From: Stigmatella aurantiaca DW4/3-1
GTDB lineage: Bacteria; Myxococcota; Myxococcia; Myxococcales; Myxococcaceae
Assembly: GCF_000165485.1 (NCBI RefSeq)
Contig: NC_014623.1
Coordinates: 6,590,893 to 6,654,892, forward strand
Direction of reading: 5' to 3'
Length of the DNA stretch: 64,000 bases
Positions 32,565 through 40,280 of the stretch are shown in pieces. The translations under genes and the position numbers were made by a program. A model generated the notes under the pieces. The model saw only the letters and a list, made by a program, of their open reading frames with translations, had not been told where the DNA came from and searched no databases. The first letter of the stretch is position 1. Every line of letters starts with the position of its first letter.

Positions 32565-35060
32565 ATGACGCACCCCTCCGGGCTGGGGCTCGCTCCCGGC
32601 CACCGCGTGAAGTGGATCGATGGCCGCATCGCCGTCGAAGCCGACGATGACCGCAGCCGCCTCCGCGCCGCGCTGGAGCGCAACCTCGTGGCCGGAGATG
32701 GAGGCCACACGCTCATCCTCGGGGGCCAGATCCGCGCCCACCTTCGCCCCCCCGCTCACGTCGAGCCCCTCACGGCCTTCGAGGCGCGCTTCCTCGCCGA
32801 CAACAACGTGCCCCTGTCGCTCCCCACCGGCACGCCCGCGTTCTCTCCGCGCACCGACCTCCACACCCATTTCGCCGGCGCTCTTCCCGGGCGGCTCCTG
32901 GTCGAGCTGGCCGCTGCCACGGAAGGCGTCACGGTGCCTCGCGGTGTGCTCGCGGAGGCAGGCATCGACGCTCGTCAGGATGTCCCCGCCGCCGCCCTCA
33001 CCGCGCTGGCGCGTGACCGGCTCGCCCGAAGCCTCGATGTGCCCCTCGACCAGCAGATCACGTTCCAGGACATGGAGCGCCTCTACGCTCGGCGAAGCCC
33101 CCTCACCAAACACCCCCGCCTCTTCGTCCCACAACTCTGGGCCATTGCCCGGGGGTTCGCCGCCACGGGGGTGCACTATGCCGAGCTCTCGCTGTCCACG
33201 GCGGTAGAGCCAGAGATCCTTGCCGCGCTTCATGCTTCGCTCGACAGCATCGAGGCAGACAGCGGGGTGCGCCTCCGCTTCCTCGTGGCCATGTCCCGTC
33301 ACGATGACCTCGAATGGGACCTCGATGTTCTCGACCGCCTCGAGCAGTGTCTCCCCAGCCGTGCCATCGCGGGCGTGGACATCATGGGCCATGAGACGTG
33401 CTCCACACGGGCCTTCGTGCCGGTCCTCGAGCGCGCCGGGGCCCTCGGGCGAGCGCGGCCTGGCTTCGTGGTCCGCGTGCATGCCGGGGAGAACCCGGCG
33501 TTCCCCGAGAACGTCCGCGAGGCCGTCCGCGCGCTCCTGCCCTTCCCAGGGATCGAGATCCGCATCGGCCACGGGCTCTACGGCGTCGACGGCGAGACCC
33601 TGGCCTCCATGGCCCGCAACTCGGACCGGGTGATCGTCGAGTTCAACCTCACGTCCAACCTCGCGCTCAACAACATCCAGACCACCCTGCAGGTTCCCTT
33701 GCGGCGGTACGTGGATGCCGGCGTCTCGGCCGTCCTTGGCAGCGATGGTGCCGGCCTCTATGGAACCTCTGCCGCCGACGAAGCACGCGCCGCCCTCGCG
33801 TGCGGCCTTGACGAGCCGCGGCTTGCCTGGCTCCGGCACACGGAAGACTTGCTGCTGAAAAGGCGCCAGGAGAACGAGCGCCCCCAGCCCGCCCTCCGTG
33901 ACTGGCTCCCTCCTCTCCCCTTGCCCCGACGGCACTTCACCCCGGCCCGAGCCGCCGAACTCGCGGCACGGCGCGGCTCGGTGCGGGCAGCCCAGGAGCA
34001 ACGGCTGAGTCAACTGGGGGCCACCGTCACCAACGAAGCGCCAGTCCTGACCGGCCGTCCCCTGTTGTGGCTCGCAGGGGCGTGGCGTCATGCGTTCGCG
34101 GCTTGGTCGCCGGAAGAGATCCGGACCACCTCCGGGATCCTCACGGACGTGCTGCGCGGACTCGCCTCCCGCGGGGGTCTGCTCCTGACCGGCGGGACAT
34201 GCCATGGCATGGAAGGGCTGAGCCACGGTCTTGCCGCGCAGGTGGGCGTCGATGTCCTCGGCGCCATCGTGGAGGAGACGCTTGCCGAGGACCTCGACGC
34301 ACGCGTTCAAACCTTCTGGCGCTGCGCGCGCTCCTTGTACGAGAAGGCCGCGCCCGTGGTTCGCCTGGTGCGCGACGCGAATGGGCTCGGACTTTTCCTC
34401 GGCGGAGGCCTCATTGTCGCCGACGAGCAACAGGCCGCCCACAACCTCCGCGCCCGGCACGTGCTGCTCTCGGGACTGCGAGGCGCCGCCGTGGATGCCG
34501 CCCGAGCCAGCCAACATGTTCGCTTCGTCGATGACGCGGCCAGCATCCTGGCGGCCCTCGATGACACGCGTCCCTGGGGCCAGCTCCGCTACCCAGGCCC
34601 CAATGACGCCGCGGATGTCGTCCTCATCCGGCGCGGCCCCTTGGGGGATGACGAGCTTCTGCTGATCCGGCGCCACGACGACAGCGACGCCGCCGCGGGG
34701 CGCATGTCCCTGCCCGGAGGGTTCGTGCACCCCGGCGAGGCGCCGCGCGACGCCGCCGTCCGCGAGCTGCTCGAAGAGACGGGCCTCCGGATGCCAGCGT
34801 CCGCGCTGAGCCCCGTTGCCATCGTGGAAGGAGGAGGACGCGACCCGCGCGACACGGAGGAACGGTGGGTGCGCAGCCACGTCTTCGCGGTCCGCATGGA
34901 CGGCGAGGACGCCACACCGCACGGCGCCTCGGGCAATCTCGTTCTCGGAGGTTCGGATGCCGCGGCGGCGCTCTTTGTCTCCATTGCCCACCGGCCACGT
35001 CTGGCCTTCGATCACGACAGCCTGGTGACCCAGGCTCTTGCGGTGCTCTCCCGCGGCTGA
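32565..35060 (+). CDS. Adenosine-deaminase-like / SLOG-like / Nudix three-domain protein
   Basis: An 831-residue protein with three nucleotide-related parts. Residues about 90-430 form an adenosine-deaminase-like amidohydrolase barrel with metal and catalytic residues in place: His100-x-His102 in TDLHTHFAGA, HAGE at 306-309, His336 in RIGHGLYG and Asp394 in GSDGAGLYGT. The second Asp of the usual ADA Asp-Asp pair is Gly395, so purine contacts may differ. Residues about 499-667 look like a SLOG/LOG-type Rossmann fold (RPLLWLAGAW, GLLLTGGTCHGMEGLSHG, GLGLFLGGGLIVADE). Residues about 680-825 are a Nudix hydrolase with a perfect Nudix box from Gly719 (GFVHPGEA to RELLEETGL). ATG 32565 has no ribosome binding site. 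The combination suggests sensing, hydrolysis and deamination of a nucleotide derivative. The SLOG call is inference; ADA and Nudix are strong. Confidence 0.8.
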   Translation: MTHPSGLGLAPGHRVKWIDGRIAVEADDDRSRLRAALERNLVAGDGGHTLILGGQIRAHLRPPAHVEPLTAFEARFLADNNVPLSLPTGTPAFSPRTDLHTHFAGALPGRLLVELAAATEGVTVPRGVLAEAGIDARQDVPAAALTALARDRLARSLDVPLDQQITFQDMERLYARRSPLTKHPRLFVPQLWAIARGFAATGVHYAELSLSTAVEPEILAALHASLDSIEADSGVRLRFLVAMSRHDDLEWDLDVLDRLEQCLPSRAIAGVDIMGHETCSTRAFVPVLERAGALGRARPGFVVRVHAGENPAFPENVREAVRALLPFPGIEIRIGHGLYGVDGETLASMARNSDRVIVEFNLTSNLALNNIQTTLQVPLRRYVDAGVSAVLGSDGAGLYGTSAADEARAALACGLDEPRLAWLRHTEDLLLKRRQENERPQPALRDWLPPLPLPRRHFTPARAAELAARRGSVRAAQEQRLSQLGATVTNEAPVLTGRPLLWLAGAWRHAFAAWSPEEIRTTSGILTDVLRGLASRGGLLLTGGTCHGMEGLSHGLAAQVGVDVLGAIVEETLAEDLDARVQTFWRCARSLYEKAAPVVRLVRDANGLGLFLGGGLIVADEQQAAHNLRARHVLLSGLRGAAVDAARASQHVRFVDDAASILAALDDTRPWGQLRYPGPNDAADVVLIRRGPLGDDELLLIRRHDDSDAAAGRMSLPGGFVHPGEAPRDAAVRELLEETGLRMPASALSPVAIVEGGGRDPRDTEERWVRSHVFAVRMDGEDATPHGASGNLVLGGSDAAAALFVSIAHRPRLAFDHDSLVTQALAVLSRG

Positions 35061-36431: not shown

Positions 36432-39400
36432 TCAGTGGACCGTCCGGGTGCCCTGCTCCTCCTCGTCGCCGTGCCGGGCTCGGGGAGAATCCCCCCCCGC
36501 CAGCAGGGAAAGCAGATCCTTCGTGGTGAGACGTGCCGCGACATCCGTCCCCTCGAGCACACCCGCCACGAGGGCGCGCTTGTCCGAGTGGAGCGAGAGG
36601 ATCTGCTCTTCGATGGTGCCGCGCGCGATGAGCCGGTACACGGTCACCGGCCGCGTTTGCCCGATTCGATGGGCCCGGTCCGTCGCCTGATCTTCGACCG
36701 CCGGGTTCCACCACGGATCCAGGTGGATGACATAGTCGGCGGCGGTGAGGTTGATGCCCGTGCCACCCGCCTTGAGCGAGATGAGGAACACGTCCCCCTT
36801 TCCCTCCTGGAACGCCTGGATCCTCTTCGCGCGTGCGCCCAGGGGCGTCGAGCCATCCAGGTACTGATACGTGAAGCCACCGCGCTCCACCTCCTCCCGG
36901 ACAAGCTCGAGGTGCGAGGTAAACTGGCTGAAGACCAGCACGCGGTGGCCTTCGCTCTTCAGTTCCTCCAGCAACTCGAGGAGGCGCCTCATCTTCGAGG
37001 ACGAGATGCCCGACTGTGCGTCGTAGAGGCGTGGATGCGAGGCGAGCAGCCGCAGCCGCGTGAGGGCCGCCAGCACCTGGAACCGCTGCTGCTCATCCCT
37101 CAGGCCCTTGCCTTGGGAGCTGACCTCCGCGACCGCCGCCAGGCGCGCATCCTCGTAGAGGGTCCACTCCTCTTCGGAGAGCGCCACTGGCACCTGGATC
37201 TCCGTGCGCGAGGGCAGCTCCCGTGCGACCTCCTGCTTCGTACGCCGAAGCAAGAAAGGACGCAGCACGCGTGACAGGGCGGCGCTCGCCTCGGGATCCT
37301 TCCCCCGCTCGATGGGGGCGGCAAAGCGCTCCCGGAACTGCTCCCAACTGCCAAGCAACCCCGGAAAGACGATCGCGAAGAGGCTCCACAGCTCCCCGAG
37401 GTGATTCTCGAGAGGCGTTCCCGAGAGTGCGATGCGGAACCCCGCCTTCAGCTGCCGGGCAGCCCGGGCCCGCCGGGTCTGGGGGTTCTTCAGCGCCTGC
37501 GCCTCATCGGCGACAAGGGTCGAGAACGGAATCTCCCCAAGGCTCGCCGCATCGCGCACCAACAGGCCGTAGCTCACGATGAGCACGTCGTTCTTCTTGA
37601 GCTTCGCGAGACACTCCAGCCGCTCCGCTTCCTCCGCGTAGAGAATGGGACGCAGGCTCGGCGCGAAGCGGTGGATCTCCTGGACCCAGTTGAAGGCGAC
37701 TGAGGTCGGCGCGAGCACCAGCGCGGGACCCAGCCGCGCCCGATCGAGGAGCACCGCCAGCGCTTGCACGGTCTTCCCAAGCCCCATGTCATCGGCGAGG
37801 CACGCCCCCGCCCCCCAGGCCGCCACACGGCTGAGCCACGCGTGGCCGTCCACCTGGTAATCGCGCAGCGTGGTTCCCAACGAGGCCGGCGGTTTCGGCT
37901 TGAGCGAGAGCGACGCGGCCAGGCGCTCCGTCAGAAGCTGCCACGCCGGGGCCGCTTCAACGTCCGCGCCGCCCTCGCGCAACGCGCTGATGGCGGGGAC
38001 CGCTCCCGGCGAGAGTTCCACCCGGTTCTTTCCAATGAAGGAGTGATCAGCGACCGCAACCAAGCGCTGCCGCAAGGCCTCGCTGAGCTCGACCCACCGG
38101 TGTGCATCGACACGCACGAAGCGTTTCTGCCGCCGGGCCGCATCCAGAAGCACCGCCAGTTCGATCCTTCCTGCCTCGACCTTCAATTCGCCCGAGACGC
38201 CGAACCAATCCCGCTTTCGCTCGACCTGCACCTTCAACGCGTCGGGGCCAACCGCTGAGGCAATGAATGGCTTCTCGTCCACCCATTCGACCTCGAGGCC
38301 TTCGGGAGGCTTCTGCAAGGCAGCGACAAGCTCCAGGGCCCCCTCCGTGTCGCCAAGACGAAAGCAGAAGGGGGGTCCTTCCTCGGCCGTCGAGAGGGGC
38401 AGCGAGGCAATGTCCGCGCGGGCGCGCTCCTCTTCCCTCAACAACTGGCGGCGCACGTAGCCTCGCTCCCCCCCGCGGGAGAGCAGGACATCCCGGGGGC
38501 CTACGCCGGGATGGAACAGCGGTGCCCCTGGCCCTGGCCGCACGAGCAGCTCGAGTTCGAGCGACACGTCCGGCAGCAGGCGCAGACGGACGACGGTGCC
38601 CGTTTCCGTCTGAAGCTCACGCCCTTTCAACGTCTGCGGCACCACCAAGGGAAGACGCGCTTCGAGGCGAGCCAACCGCTCCAGCAGCTGCTCATGGCTC
38701 TCAGGGGGAAACTGGTCGCCGTGCTTCTCGAGGACCGCCCAGAGCTGCCGCGCCTCCTCATTCACGTCGATGAGCAGGCACCGGCCCCGTTGCTCCTCGA
38801 CCATGAACAGGGGCTCGCCTGGAGCGAACGTGCGCAGCAACGCCCCCAGGAGCTTGGGACCGAGGCGCTCTCCTTCGATGGACGGCTCCAAGCGGATGTG
38901 GTCTTCCGCGGCCAGTGCCGTGAAGCCAAGCTGCACGCGCCTGACCTCCAAGGGTGACTCAGGACTCAACTCGAGCGCGGCACGGGGATGACCGGCCAGC
39001 GCGAGAAAGGCCCGGGAAGGAAACGTGCCCGTCCCGCGGGAGGTGGGAGCCCACGAAGCGAGGTACTCGGCGATCCGGAGGTCCGTGTCGGAAAGCAGCT
39101 CGCGATGCTCTTCGAGCAATCGGATCGCGGTCATCCGCGCACCGGAACTCAGAGTCCCTCTGCGGGTCTGTTTCTTCACGAGGGGCGACAGCGTCAAGGT
39201 CCCGAGCTCATGCTCGATGAGCCACCACACCTCGATCGTGGCGCGGGGCTTCGCCGCCTCCACCTCGAACAGTTCGAGTTCTTTCAAAGCGCGCGCCCAG
39301 CCCGGACTCAGGAGTTCCTCGGCGAGCCGCCTTGCCTCAGCGCTCCGGACAGTGTCCGCGAGCAGATCGAGGACCGTGTCGACGAGCGCGAGCGCGTGGA

Positions 39401-40280
39401 CACAGCCCCGTTGCCGGATCCCGCAACTGCACTCCGCCCGGCCCGCTCCACCGCCAGGGAACGTCAACCGGGCCAACACCCCCACGGTGCCGTAGTCCGG
39501 CCCCCCACGAACGACACGGTCCCGTTCCTTCCACGTGAGCGCGCATGCGGCCGCATCGAAGCTCCAGGACTCCAAGGCTCGACGTTCGCGAGAGCGAGGA
39601 GAGGCATGAGGCCGAAGCGTGCGGCGCACTTCCAGCAGGCGGCTCCACAACGGCGCCAGCAGCGCGTCCTCGTGCTGTTCCGAGCGTGCGGCCTCCTCGG
39701 TGAGGGCCCGCCGCACCGAGCCCGCCTCCTGCTGCAGAAAAGCCCAGGCCGCCTCGGTGAGCGCCGTTTCCAGCCCCCTGCCACGTGCGCCAACATGACG
39801 GAACGCCCCCTCCCTCGAACCGACATCCCGGAGGGCGAGACCGCCCAAGACATGGCGGAGCCCGTTGCGCTGCGCCTCGTGAATGGCCAGGTCCGAGATG
39901 AGGACCGACGCGGAGACGGCGAGCGCGTGCCGGACGTGGTGCTCCTCCGCCCATCGCTCCAGCGCATCCCGTGCCGAGAACGGCCCTTCGGATGGTCCCG
40001 CCACGGCGCCTTGCTGGGCGAGAAAGGACAGGCTGAGGGCAACCGCGTGCTTGCACACGGCTTGCCGCACCGGGCATGTGCAGTTGGACACGAGCATCCC
40101 GTCCGAGGCGGTCACCCGGACGCGGTACTCGGACGTTCCAACCACCAGACCATCGAGGGCGTCCTTTTCGAGGATGCAGGAGCGGACGCGCCCCTCCCGC
40201 CAGTAAGCCTCGCCGCGCTCAAAGGCGTTTCCCGCGGACGCGCGAAGGTTCTCGGAGGTGAGCAGCGTGGACAACGGCAT
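36432..40280 (-). CDS. SNF2-family helicase with two SWIM-type zinc fingers
   Basis: A 1282-residue Swi2/Snf2 ATPase. The C-terminal half has the full motor: DDMGLGKTVQALAVL (Walker A), VADEAQALKNPQTRRA (Walker B, DEAQ), ALSGTPLENHLGELWSL, the SLKAGGTGINLTAADYVIHL strand and QATDRAHRIGQTRPVTVYRL (motif VI). The N-terminal half carries a SWIM zinc finger (CTCPVRQAVCKHAVALSLSF, about 87-107) and a second SWIM-like site (CSCGIRQRGCVHALAL, about 282-298). Bacterial members move along duplex DNA or displace proteins such as RNA polymerase. Two SWIM motifs are unusual. No nuclease or other defence gene is adjacent, so a housekeeping role is the default reading. ATG 40280 starts MPLSTLLTSENLRASAGNAF. 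Confidence 0.93.
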   Translation of the reverse strand: MPLSTLLTSENLRASAGNAFERGEAYWREGRVRSCILEKDALDGLVVGTSEYRVRVTASDGMLVSNCTCPVRQAVCKHAVALSLSFLAQQGAVAGPSEGPFSARDALERWAEEHHVRHALAVSASVLISDLAIHEAQRNGLRHVLGGLALRDVGSREGAFRHVGARGRGLETALTEAAWAFLQQEAGSVRRALTEEAARSEQHEDALLAPLWSRLLEVRRTLRPHASPRSRERRALESWSFDAAACALTWKERDRVVRGGPDYGTVGVLARLTFPGGGAGRAECSCGIRQRGCVHALALVDTVLDLLADTVRSAEARRLAEELLSPGWARALKELELFEVEAAKPRATIEVWWLIEHELGTLTLSPLVKKQTRRGTLSSGARMTAIRLLEEHRELLSDTDLRIAEYLASWAPTSRGTGTFPSRAFLALAGHPRAALELSPESPLEVRRVQLGFTALAAEDHIRLEPSIEGERLGPKLLGALLRTFAPGEPLFMVEEQRGRCLLIDVNEEARQLWAVLEKHGDQFPPESHEQLLERLARLEARLPLVVPQTLKGRELQTETGTVVRLRLLPDVSLELELLVRPGPGAPLFHPGVGPRDVLLSRGGERGYVRRQLLREEERARADIASLPLSTAEEGPPFCFRLGDTEGALELVAALQKPPEGLEVEWVDEKPFIASAVGPDALKVQVERKRDWFGVSGELKVEAGRIELAVLLDAARRQKRFVRVDAHRWVELSEALRQRLVAVADHSFIGKNRVELSPGAVPAISALREGGADVEAAPAWQLLTERLAASLSLKPKPPASLGTTLRDYQVDGHAWLSRVAAWGAGACLADDMGLGKTVQALAVLLDRARLGPALVLAPTSVAFNWVQEIHRFAPSLRPILYAEEAERLECLAKLKKNDVLIVSYGLLVRDAASLGEIPFSTLVADEAQALKNPQTRRARAARQLKAGFRIALSGTPLENHLGELWSLFAIVFPGLLGSWEQFRERFAAPIERGKDPEASAALSRVLRPFLLRRTKQEVARELPSRTEIQVPVALSEEEWTLYEDARLAAVAEVSSQGKGLRDEQQRFQVLAALTRLRLLASHPRLYDAQSGISSSKMRRLLELLEELKSEGHRVLVFSQFTSHLELVREEVERGGFTYQYLDGSTPLGARAKRIQAFQEGKGDVFLISLKAGGTGINLTAADYVIHLDPWWNPAVEDQATDRAHRIGQTRPVTVYRLIARGTIEEQILSLHSDKRALVAGVLEGTDVAARLTTKDLLSLLAGGDSPRARHGDEEEQGTRTVH

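Follow-up and report, generated by a model that had tools for sequence, protein, structure and literature searches.

An ADA-SLOG-Nudix fusion protein of Stigmatella aurantiaca and its possible place in NAD turnover

Cad1 (also CAAD), the CARF-fused adenosine deaminase (ADA) of type III CRISPR systems, and the TRPM2 chanzyme of choanoflagellates are among the closest described counterparts of the protein discussed here. The gene for this protein lies on the plus strand at 32565..35060 of the window, by which we mean the whole stretch of 64,000 nucleotides that was analysed (Stigmatella aurantiaca DW4/3-1, assembly GCF_000165485.1, contig NC_014623.1, positions 6,590,893 to 6,654,892); the genome that carries the window is 10.26 Mb long and forms one contig. 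The product joins an ADA-fold domain, a SLOG (Smf/LOG-type Rossmannoid) domain and a Nudix domain, in that order, in one chain of 831 residues. We tentatively read it as an enzyme of NAD turnover, in which the Nudix domain would split ADP-ribose, the deaminase would act on an adenine nucleotide and the SLOG domain would be a ligand-binding regulator. This is the explanation that we favour, and it falls somewhat short of being probable.

Like the fusion protein, Cad1 combines an ADA domain with a Rossmann-type ligand domain and has replaced the two aspartates equivalent to D19 and D296 of mouse ADA; the ADA domains superimpose with Z-scores of 25-28. In Cad1, however, the CARF domain precedes the ADA domain and there is no Nudix domain, whereas in the fusion protein the SLOG and Nudix domains follow the ADA domain. 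The replacing residues also differ, being Gly and Asn in Cad1 and Ala and Gly in the fusion protein. TaqCad1, which has this Gly and Asn, is described in PMC12669630 as converting ATP to ITP; according to the same source it is without adenosine deaminase activity and does not convert AMP, ADP or N6-methyl-AMP. RdrB of the RADAR system, cited there, also belongs to the ADA family and converts ATP to ITP. Its architecture is different from that of the fusion protein, which has no RADAR match in PADLOC.

The TRPM2 chanzyme, with the related NUDT9, resembles the other half of the protein: a SLOG domain (MHR1/2) and a NUDT9-type Nudix domain are present in one chain, and the SLOG domains superimpose with Z-scores of 14-16. 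Unlike the chanzyme, the fusion protein has a deaminase and no ion channel, and its SLOG domain gives Z-scores of 16-18 with molybdenum cofactor (Moco) carrier proteins and LOG. NadM-Nudix and NrtR contain a related Nudix domain; the fusion protein lacks the nicotinamide mononucleotide (NMN) adenylyltransferase domain of the former and the DNA-binding domain of the latter. LOG, Moco carrier proteins and DprA, all of the SLOG superfamily, share the fold of the middle domain (Z 14-18), and a profile of that domain matches LOG proteins weakly, but the RK and PGGxGTxxE motifs of LOG are not kept.

Each of the domains is known, and the combination appears to be new. An ADA-SLOG-Nudix architecture is not described in the open-access literature searched, and the term adenosine deaminase is absent from the main text of PMC9503650 and PMC7159879. 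This agrees with a preliminary description of the window, which knew of no system with this order of domains; the main SLOG survey (Burroughs and others, 2015) lies outside that literature and may list it.

Three domains in one chain

The gene is a single open reading frame that runs from the ATG at 32565 to the stop codon ending at 35060. A TTG located 18 codons upstream would allow a longer N-terminus; in the homologue at locus L025, which is 92% identical, the first start codon aligns with the methionine of the ATG at 32565. Twelve full-length proteins are available from Hyalangium, Archangium and Rhodoferax, with pairwise identities of 39-94%. The protein of the window is counted among them here and in all counts of 12 below. 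The parts of the gene are as follows.

32565..35060, plus strand: whole gene, ADA-SLOG-Nudix fusion, 831 residues; all 12 aligned proteins show this order in a single frame
32565..32831, plus strand: N-terminal cap, residues 1-89, a short beta-rich region and a helix (AlphaFold model, Pfam)
32832..33887, plus strand: ADA-fold domain, residues 90-441 (Pfam PF00962; VIA-align Z 25-29)
32862..32876, plus strand: HxHxA, with zinc ligands H100 and H102, and Ala104 where the canonical HxHLD has Asp19; kept in all 12 proteins (compared with Salmonella ADA 6n9m)
33480..33491, plus strand: HAGE, the same in all 12 proteins, where H306 binds zinc and E309 is catalytic
33570..33572, plus strand: catalytic His336 (RIGHG); invariant in 12 of 12
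33744..33749, plus strand: zinc ligand D394, followed by Gly395 where Asp296 is canonical; in 12 of 12 and also in the partial copy L060 (alignment to ADAs)
33888..34052, plus strand: linker, mostly helical, residues 442-496 (AlphaFold model)
34053..34574, plus strand: SLOG domain, residues ~497-670 (model pLDDT 91.1, Z 14-18, weak profile matches to LOG proteins)
34188..34217, plus strand: SLOG glycine motif TGGTxxGxEG, residues 542-551; T542, G543, G544, T545, G548, E550 and G551 invariant in 12 of 12
34344..34427, plus strand: second SLOG motif, K594 of (E/D)KA and GGGxxVxDE at 613-621; K594, G613-615, V618, D620 and E621 invariant in 12 of 12 (alignment)
34590..35051, plus strand: Nudix domain, residues 676-829 (Pfam PF00293; profile search of the PDB)
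34719..34787, plus strand: Nudix box, residues 719-741, complete in the window; all 13 aligned rows keep the first G, the Arg and the four Glu
34839..34868, plus strand: RDPRDTxxxW after the box, residues 759-768; R759, D760, R762, D763 and W768 invariant in 13 of 13

In the protein of the window, Pfam recognises A_deaminase at residues 95-421 (E 9.8e-24) and NUDIX at 682-785 (E 2.4e-15); each passes its curated cut-off. There is no Pfam match at threshold between the two, and the cap has no family match in Pfam. The order cap, ADA, SLOG, Nudix is kept in one open frame in all 12 full-length proteins. The ratio of nonsynonymous to synonymous substitution rates (dN/dS; Nei-Gojobori, all 15 Hyalangium pairs) is 0.10-0.17 for the ADA part, 0.05-0.17 for the SLOG part and 0.13-0.24 for the Nudix part, and all three are maintained by purifying selection within Hyalangium. 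The cap is the least constrained part (0.14-0.45). Because the frame is open in 12 of 12 proteins and dN/dS of the three domains is 0.05-0.24, the fusion is not an artefact of a frameshift or of assembly. The reading frame, Pfam and the predicted SLOG fold thus agree with the preliminary description of ADA-like, SLOG-like and Nudix domains in one chain of 831 residues.

The ADA-fold domain retains all six metal and catalytic positions (H100, H102, H306, E309, H336 and D394) in 12 of 12 proteins. Two other positions are different. In the alignment to 6n9m, HRHLDG of the Salmonella enzyme corresponds to HTHFAG, and TDDP to (S/T)DGx. The replaced positions are those of mouse ADA D19, which contacts the 5'- and 3'-hydroxyls, and D296; Ala104 and Gly395 occupy them in every full-length protein. 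The earlier claim of an intact ADA metal site stands, but the two aspartates are not kept. Since both of these adenosine-recognition residues are replaced, the intact site should not be taken to mean that the protein is an adenosine deaminase. The NCBIfam model of canonical adenosine deaminase, TIGR01430, gives 77.5 bits, and its cut-off of 216.55 is not reached. A structure search with the full-length model returned a list filled by ADA-type entries. In VIA-align superpositions of the ADA domain, human ADAL (Z 28.6), snail AMP deaminase (28.0), Cad1 (27.9) and Salmonella ADA (27.8) are all tied. The domain is probably a deaminase of the nucleotide type and not a salvage adenosine deaminase.

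The middle region, predicted by AlphaFold from the alignment of the 12 proteins, gave a confident model (pLDDT 91.1, pTM 0.88). Foldseek found 87 matches among solved structures at E<=0.001, with Moco carrier proteins, LOG and TRPM2 in the best 25. VIA-align superimposed the model onto the Moco carrier 6y01 with a Z-score of 18.3 (root-mean-square deviation (rmsd) 2.9, 162 residues aligned), onto LOG 5its with 16.7 (rmsd 2.9, 168 residues), onto the TRPM2 chanzyme 8sre with 15.9 (rmsd 2.9, 179 residues) and onto DprA 3maj with 14.4 (rmsd 4.2, 166 residues). The preliminary description had proposed a LOG/SLOG-type Rossmann region here, and the structural comparison with LOG, DprA and other SLOG proteins bears it out. 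Support from the amino acid sequence is weak. LSDAT_prok (PF18171, 'SLOG in TRPM, prokaryote') has the best Pfam E-value and matches three of the 12 middle domains (L016 with 22.4 bits, L015 with 19.9), but none reaches its gathering score of 25.4. LDcluster4, another SLOG family, matches four of the 12 at E 0.014 or worse. A profile search of the PDB returned LOG 5zbj at 0.069 only, and the middle-domain profile picks up LOG proteins of other genomes at 20-23 bits. Matches of single middle domains to Pfam 'Alpha_GJ', 'CheB_methylest' and 'DUF6197' were taken as chance. On the predicted structure the domain is a SLOG Rossmannoid of unsettled subfamily. Descent from TRPM2 is not claimed, because the Z-scores of Moco carrier proteins and LOG equal or exceed those of TRPM chains and LSDAT_prok stays below its cut-off.

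The motifs of the LOG phosphoribohydrolase (Arg-Lys and PGGxGTxxE) are not kept in any of the 12 proteins: RK has become (E/D)K and PGGxGTxxE has become GGGxxVxDE. The residues so replaced are presumably the catalytic ones of LOG. With the Arg and GT residues gone, release of a base as in LOG is unlikely, and binding of a ligand is more likely. The middle domain was considered first as a LOG enzyme, because Nudix, LOG and ADA in this order would make a neat pathway from ADP-ribose to AMP, adenine and hypoxanthine; the replacement of the LOG residues in 12 of 12 proteins led to this idea being dropped.

The Nudix domain is recognised by PF00293 with 57.1 bits (cut-off 21.1). Its box, G719-x5-E725-x7-R733-E734-x2-E737-E738-x-G740, is complete in the window, as had been noted before. 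Four of the 13 aligned rows (L018, L019, L020 and L060) have 10-11 extra residues between the first glycine and the first glutamate of the box, and in L060 a threonine replaces the last glycine. A Nudix profile was compared with the PDB. NadM-Nudix scored 2.2e-12, followed by 3gz8 (1.0e-11) and 3gz5 (3.2e-11), which are titled 'MutT/nudix' and which we take to be NrtR. The TRPM2 chanzyme matched at 1.5e-10 over positions 4-145 of 152, the ADP-ribose pyrophosphatase 1q33, presumably human NUDT9, at 1.2e-9, Nematostella TRPM2 at 5.1e-7 and MutT (1mut) at 1.7e-6. Four entries scored above NadM: 2fml and 3i9x (unnamed MutT/nudix proteins), AraR, which is a transcription regulator, and 2yyh, which is titled 8-oxo-dGTPase. 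A NUDT9-type segment after the box was sought with a shorter profile, which reached 1q33 at 1.1e-4 only, and no claim of a motif is made. ADP-ribose is favoured as the Nudix substrate on these similarities, and is not proven.

NAD salvage in Rhodoferax and the function of the protein

At all four Rhodoferax/Burkholderiales loci (L015, L016, L017 and L021, the last with a decayed copy) the fusion gene is divergent from an operon pncB-nadE-nadM(Nudix). The NCBIfam names of the operon genes are nicotinate phosphoribosyltransferase, NAD+ synthase and NMN adenylyltransferase/Nudix, and they were checked for pncB and nadM-Nudix at four of four loci and for nadE at three of four (that of L021 from its N-terminus only). 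The NadM matches are full length but lie under the equivalog cut-offs. Of the 103 Rhodoferax-genus genomes, eight have this type of pncB (>=71% identity; others <=60%). Three of these eight contain the SLOG part and a fourth has the decayed copy; the remaining 95 genomes gave no SLOG match. Members of the genus need not have the fusion gene, which was encountered only alongside this pncB type.

The other four of the eight have neither the gene nor a remnant of it. In G573 the operon is kept and nothing resembling the fusion gene lies beside pncB. In G571 and G552, a nicotinamidase-like gene (judged by eye, NCBIfam giving no match at 1e-10) adjoins pncB and is followed by a divergent NrtR-like gene. 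Over the greater part of the NrtR model, the two NrtR-like genes (L091:8177-8839 and L092:8602-9276) score 141 and 145 bits, the cut-off being 400, and they occupy the position that the fusion gene holds in carriers. In G611, a nicotinamidase-like gene, pncB and a NadM-like gene stand in a row (by eye).

The relatives of the Nudix domain in the PDB and this neighbourhood agree with a connection to NAD or ADP-ribose, which had been suggested earlier from the domain types. The tentative assignment to NAD turnover follows from the union, in one protein, of a SLOG domain, a deaminase of the nucleotide type and a Nudix domain of the ADP-ribose type, and from the genes for rebuilding NAD that lie next to it in one lineage. 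ADP-ribose signals the consumption of NAD, and ADP-ribose pyrophosphatases, often fused to NAD-recycling enzymes, scavenge it, as described in PMC3680494. ADP-ribose arising from NAD breakdown would be split by the Nudix domain into AMP and ribose-5-phosphate. The substrate of the deaminase would be an adenine nucleotide with a 5' substituent, which would lose its 6-amino group; the simplest candidate is the AMP that the Nudix domain has freed, giving IMP, and ADP-ribose itself is another. The SLOG domain would bind an ADP-ribose-like nucleotide and regulate the other two domains, much as the SLOG domain of TRPM2 (MHR1/2) relates to the channel. All the substrates, the order of the steps and the regulatory role of the SLOG domain are what we infer. 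The same holds for the preliminary suggestion that the protein may sense, hydrolyse and deaminate a nucleotide. If the assignment is true, one enzyme ties the breakdown of NAD to the deamination of adenine nucleotides, a bacterial protein carries, with no ion channel, the two sorts of ADP-ribose module that TRPM2 has, and the Cad1-like kind of active site would seem to occur also in nucleotide deaminases that take no part in CRISPR immunity.

Several points weigh against this assignment. The NAD neighbourhood is confined to one genus and may reflect one historical event; five of the eight genomes with this pncB type have no intact fusion gene, and no NAD gene was recognised (mostly by eye) beside the copies in Hyalangium, Archangium and the genome G666. 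The loss of D296 could mean that the deaminase is weak or dead, since D296N of mouse ADA is severely impaired (Sideraki 1996, cited in PMC12669630). TaqCad1, in which both positions are changed too, is reported in PMC12669630 to be inactive on AMP. Furthermore, the Nudix family is broad, and four PDB entries outscore NadM.

The same domains could also form a deaminase of adenine nucleotides that is gated by the SLOG domain and has a built-in off-switch, the Nudix domain erasing the signal. We regard this as possible, if rather doubtful. Cad1 likewise consists of a Rossmann-type sensor and an ADA domain (PMC12669630), both ADA positions changed in Cad1 are also changed here, and Cad1 chains tie with others at the top of the structural matches to the ADA domain (Z 25-28, 19-24% identity). 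A SLOG domain without the Arg and GT residues of LOG is likelier to bind than to catalyse. The TRPM2 chanzyme joins ADP-ribose-sensing MHR1/2, a SLOG domain (PMC13143021), with a Nudix domain that cleaves ADP-ribose (PMC11479946), and ThsA effectors of the SIR2-SLOG type are described as being switched on by isomers of cyclic ADP-ribose (PMC11204291). The sensor of TaqCad1 is said to degrade its activator as well, so that TaqCad1 and the chanzyme each hold part of such a design. On the other hand, the equivalent of TaqCad1 Asn549 is Gly, and TaqCad1 variants at Asn549 are reported to have lost ATP deamination (PMC12669630). Nothing in the fusion protein points to ATP binding or to oligomeric gating, and no signal-producing partner (TIR, Sir2 or cyclase) was recognised by eye among the neighbours. 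Sequence cannot tell a chain, in which the deaminase uses the Nudix product, from a gated effector, in which the SLOG domain switches the deaminase and the Nudix domain erases the signal.

A more novel reading is rather unlikely. The protein would then be a soluble sensor, effector and timer, in which an ADP-ribose-binding SLOG domain senses a nucleotide derived from NAD, the Cad1-like deaminase responds by deaminating adenine nucleotides and the Nudix domain resets the system by hydrolysing the signal, in the service of NAD homeostasis and not of CRISPR immunity. Its two kinds of ADP-ribose module would be those found in TRPM2 of animals.

It is unlikely that the protein cleans up N6-modified or damaged adenine nucleotides, with the Nudix domain turning the triphosphate into the monophosphate, an ADAL-like deaminase yielding IMP and the SLOG domain recognising the modified nucleotide. 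Human ADAL is the top-ranked match of the ADA domain at Z 28.6, although tied within 1, and the Arabidopsis N6-mAMP deaminase gives 25-26; LOG, a relative of the SLOG domain that recognises cytokinin nucleotides, was taken as a parallel. The NAD-salvage context and the loss of the LOG motif argue against such a role. So does the ranking of NadM, 3gz8/3gz5, the TRPM2 chanzyme and 1q33 above MutT (1mut), yet 2yyh ranks higher still.

An antiphage effector that depletes or poisons nucleotide pools upon infection, in a role akin to RADAR or Cad1, is a little less likely again. The altered ADA positions shared with Cad1 would fit it, as would the patchy spread of the gene: the middle-domain profile was positive in 11 of 195 Myxococcota genomes and three of 103 of the Rhodoferax genus, and one of the seven searched members of the Hyalangium genus (G003) lacks the gene. 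The searches for a defence context, however, gave little. The PADLOC matches of the protein of the window are confined to a brief segment of Nudix type and to the ADA part of CARF_ADA (residues 95-410, profile positions 259-556 of 605). The ADA domain is preceded by about 90 residues, and the protein has neither a CARF match in PADLOC nor a CARF family in Pfam. No RADAR match was found for it or for the six window neighbours scanned, which are a subset. The PADLOC scan of 10 neighbours (six of the window, one of L026 and three of L019) gave matches for two. The first is an SNF2-type helicase at 36432-40280 on the minus strand, which has strong matches, one of them to PADLOC 'DpdE' end to end (1282 of 1282, 3004 bits), but scores 43.3 with NCBIfam DpdE against a cut-off of 500; the PADLOC model looks over-broad, built from this helicase or a near twin. 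The second is a DrmC/MkoB-like protein of L019 in Archangium, with weaker MkoB and DrmC matches, the best at 1.4e-11. Neither was taken as evidence of an antiphage neighbourhood, and the tie to antiphage defence that the preliminary description had drawn from ADA-like proteins was not borne out. Four of the six Hyalangium copies lie at the same fabF site, and the Rhodoferax copies lie at an NAD-salvage operon. Carriage by mobile elements was rejected as well: all seven matched records of the phage collection are Nudix-only, the matches listed from the plasmid collection (20 of 38 records) are Nudix or ADA pieces, no record of either covers 80% of the query, and 40 pattern matches in viral contigs contain no confirmed relative.

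The least likely alternative, that the deaminase is weak or dead and serves as a scaffold or binding module while the Nudix domain alone works, draws on the change of D296 to Gly and the impaired mouse mutant, but the six invariant metal and catalytic positions, the dN/dS of the ADA part and the activity of Cad1 without D296 (PMC12669630) speak against it.

Distribution, descent and other neighbours

A pattern scan of GTDB species genomes gave eight loci. The Myxococcota carriers found with the middle-domain profile are six members of the Hyalangium genus (the genome of the window counted; seven genomes of the genus were searched), three Archangium metagenome-assembled genomes, a fragment in G008, and G666, which belongs to another family. 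Around Rhodoferax, one of 399 genomes was positive in the draw from the order, one of 398 in that from the phylum and one of 299 in that from the family. Each time the real match was the centre genome G147 itself, and the gene is thus rare. Four more genomes of the family draw gave weak matches of 20-23 bits; these were set aside as LOG proteins after the sequences were read by eye. Besides the full-length genes there are three incomplete or degenerate copies. Those of G008 and G666 run into contig ends, and that of L021 (L021:7785-9402; Rhodoferax, G150) is disrupted: its ADA fragments fall in two frames, and it gave no match for the SLOG part.

The Hyalangium proteins are 49-51% identical to those of Rhodoferax and 39-41% identical to those of Archangium, which is in the same family as Hyalangium. 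The tree groups Hyalangium with Rhodoferax, with Archangium, G008 and G666 on the other side (100/99; the tree has no outgroup and carries a long-branch warning). This grouping and the rarity of the gene suggest a transfer between phyla; none is needed if the tree is rooted on the Rhodoferax branch, and so a transfer is possible, not shown.

The preliminary description had asked whether homologues lie only in conserved purine-salvage operons of a housekeeping kind. No such operon was recognised around them, Pfam or NCBIfam having named just some of the neighbours. In Hyalangium, four of the six copies have a propeller gene on one side and fabF on the other; two lie elsewhere. In Archangium, a PIN-domain toxin-like gene, without a PADLOC match, and an AbrB-like antitoxin-like gene adjoin the copy of L019 (L019:10746-11392; by eye). 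The other two Archangium loci, L018 and L020, share a hemerythrin-like neighbour, recognised by Pfam in the former and by eye in the latter.

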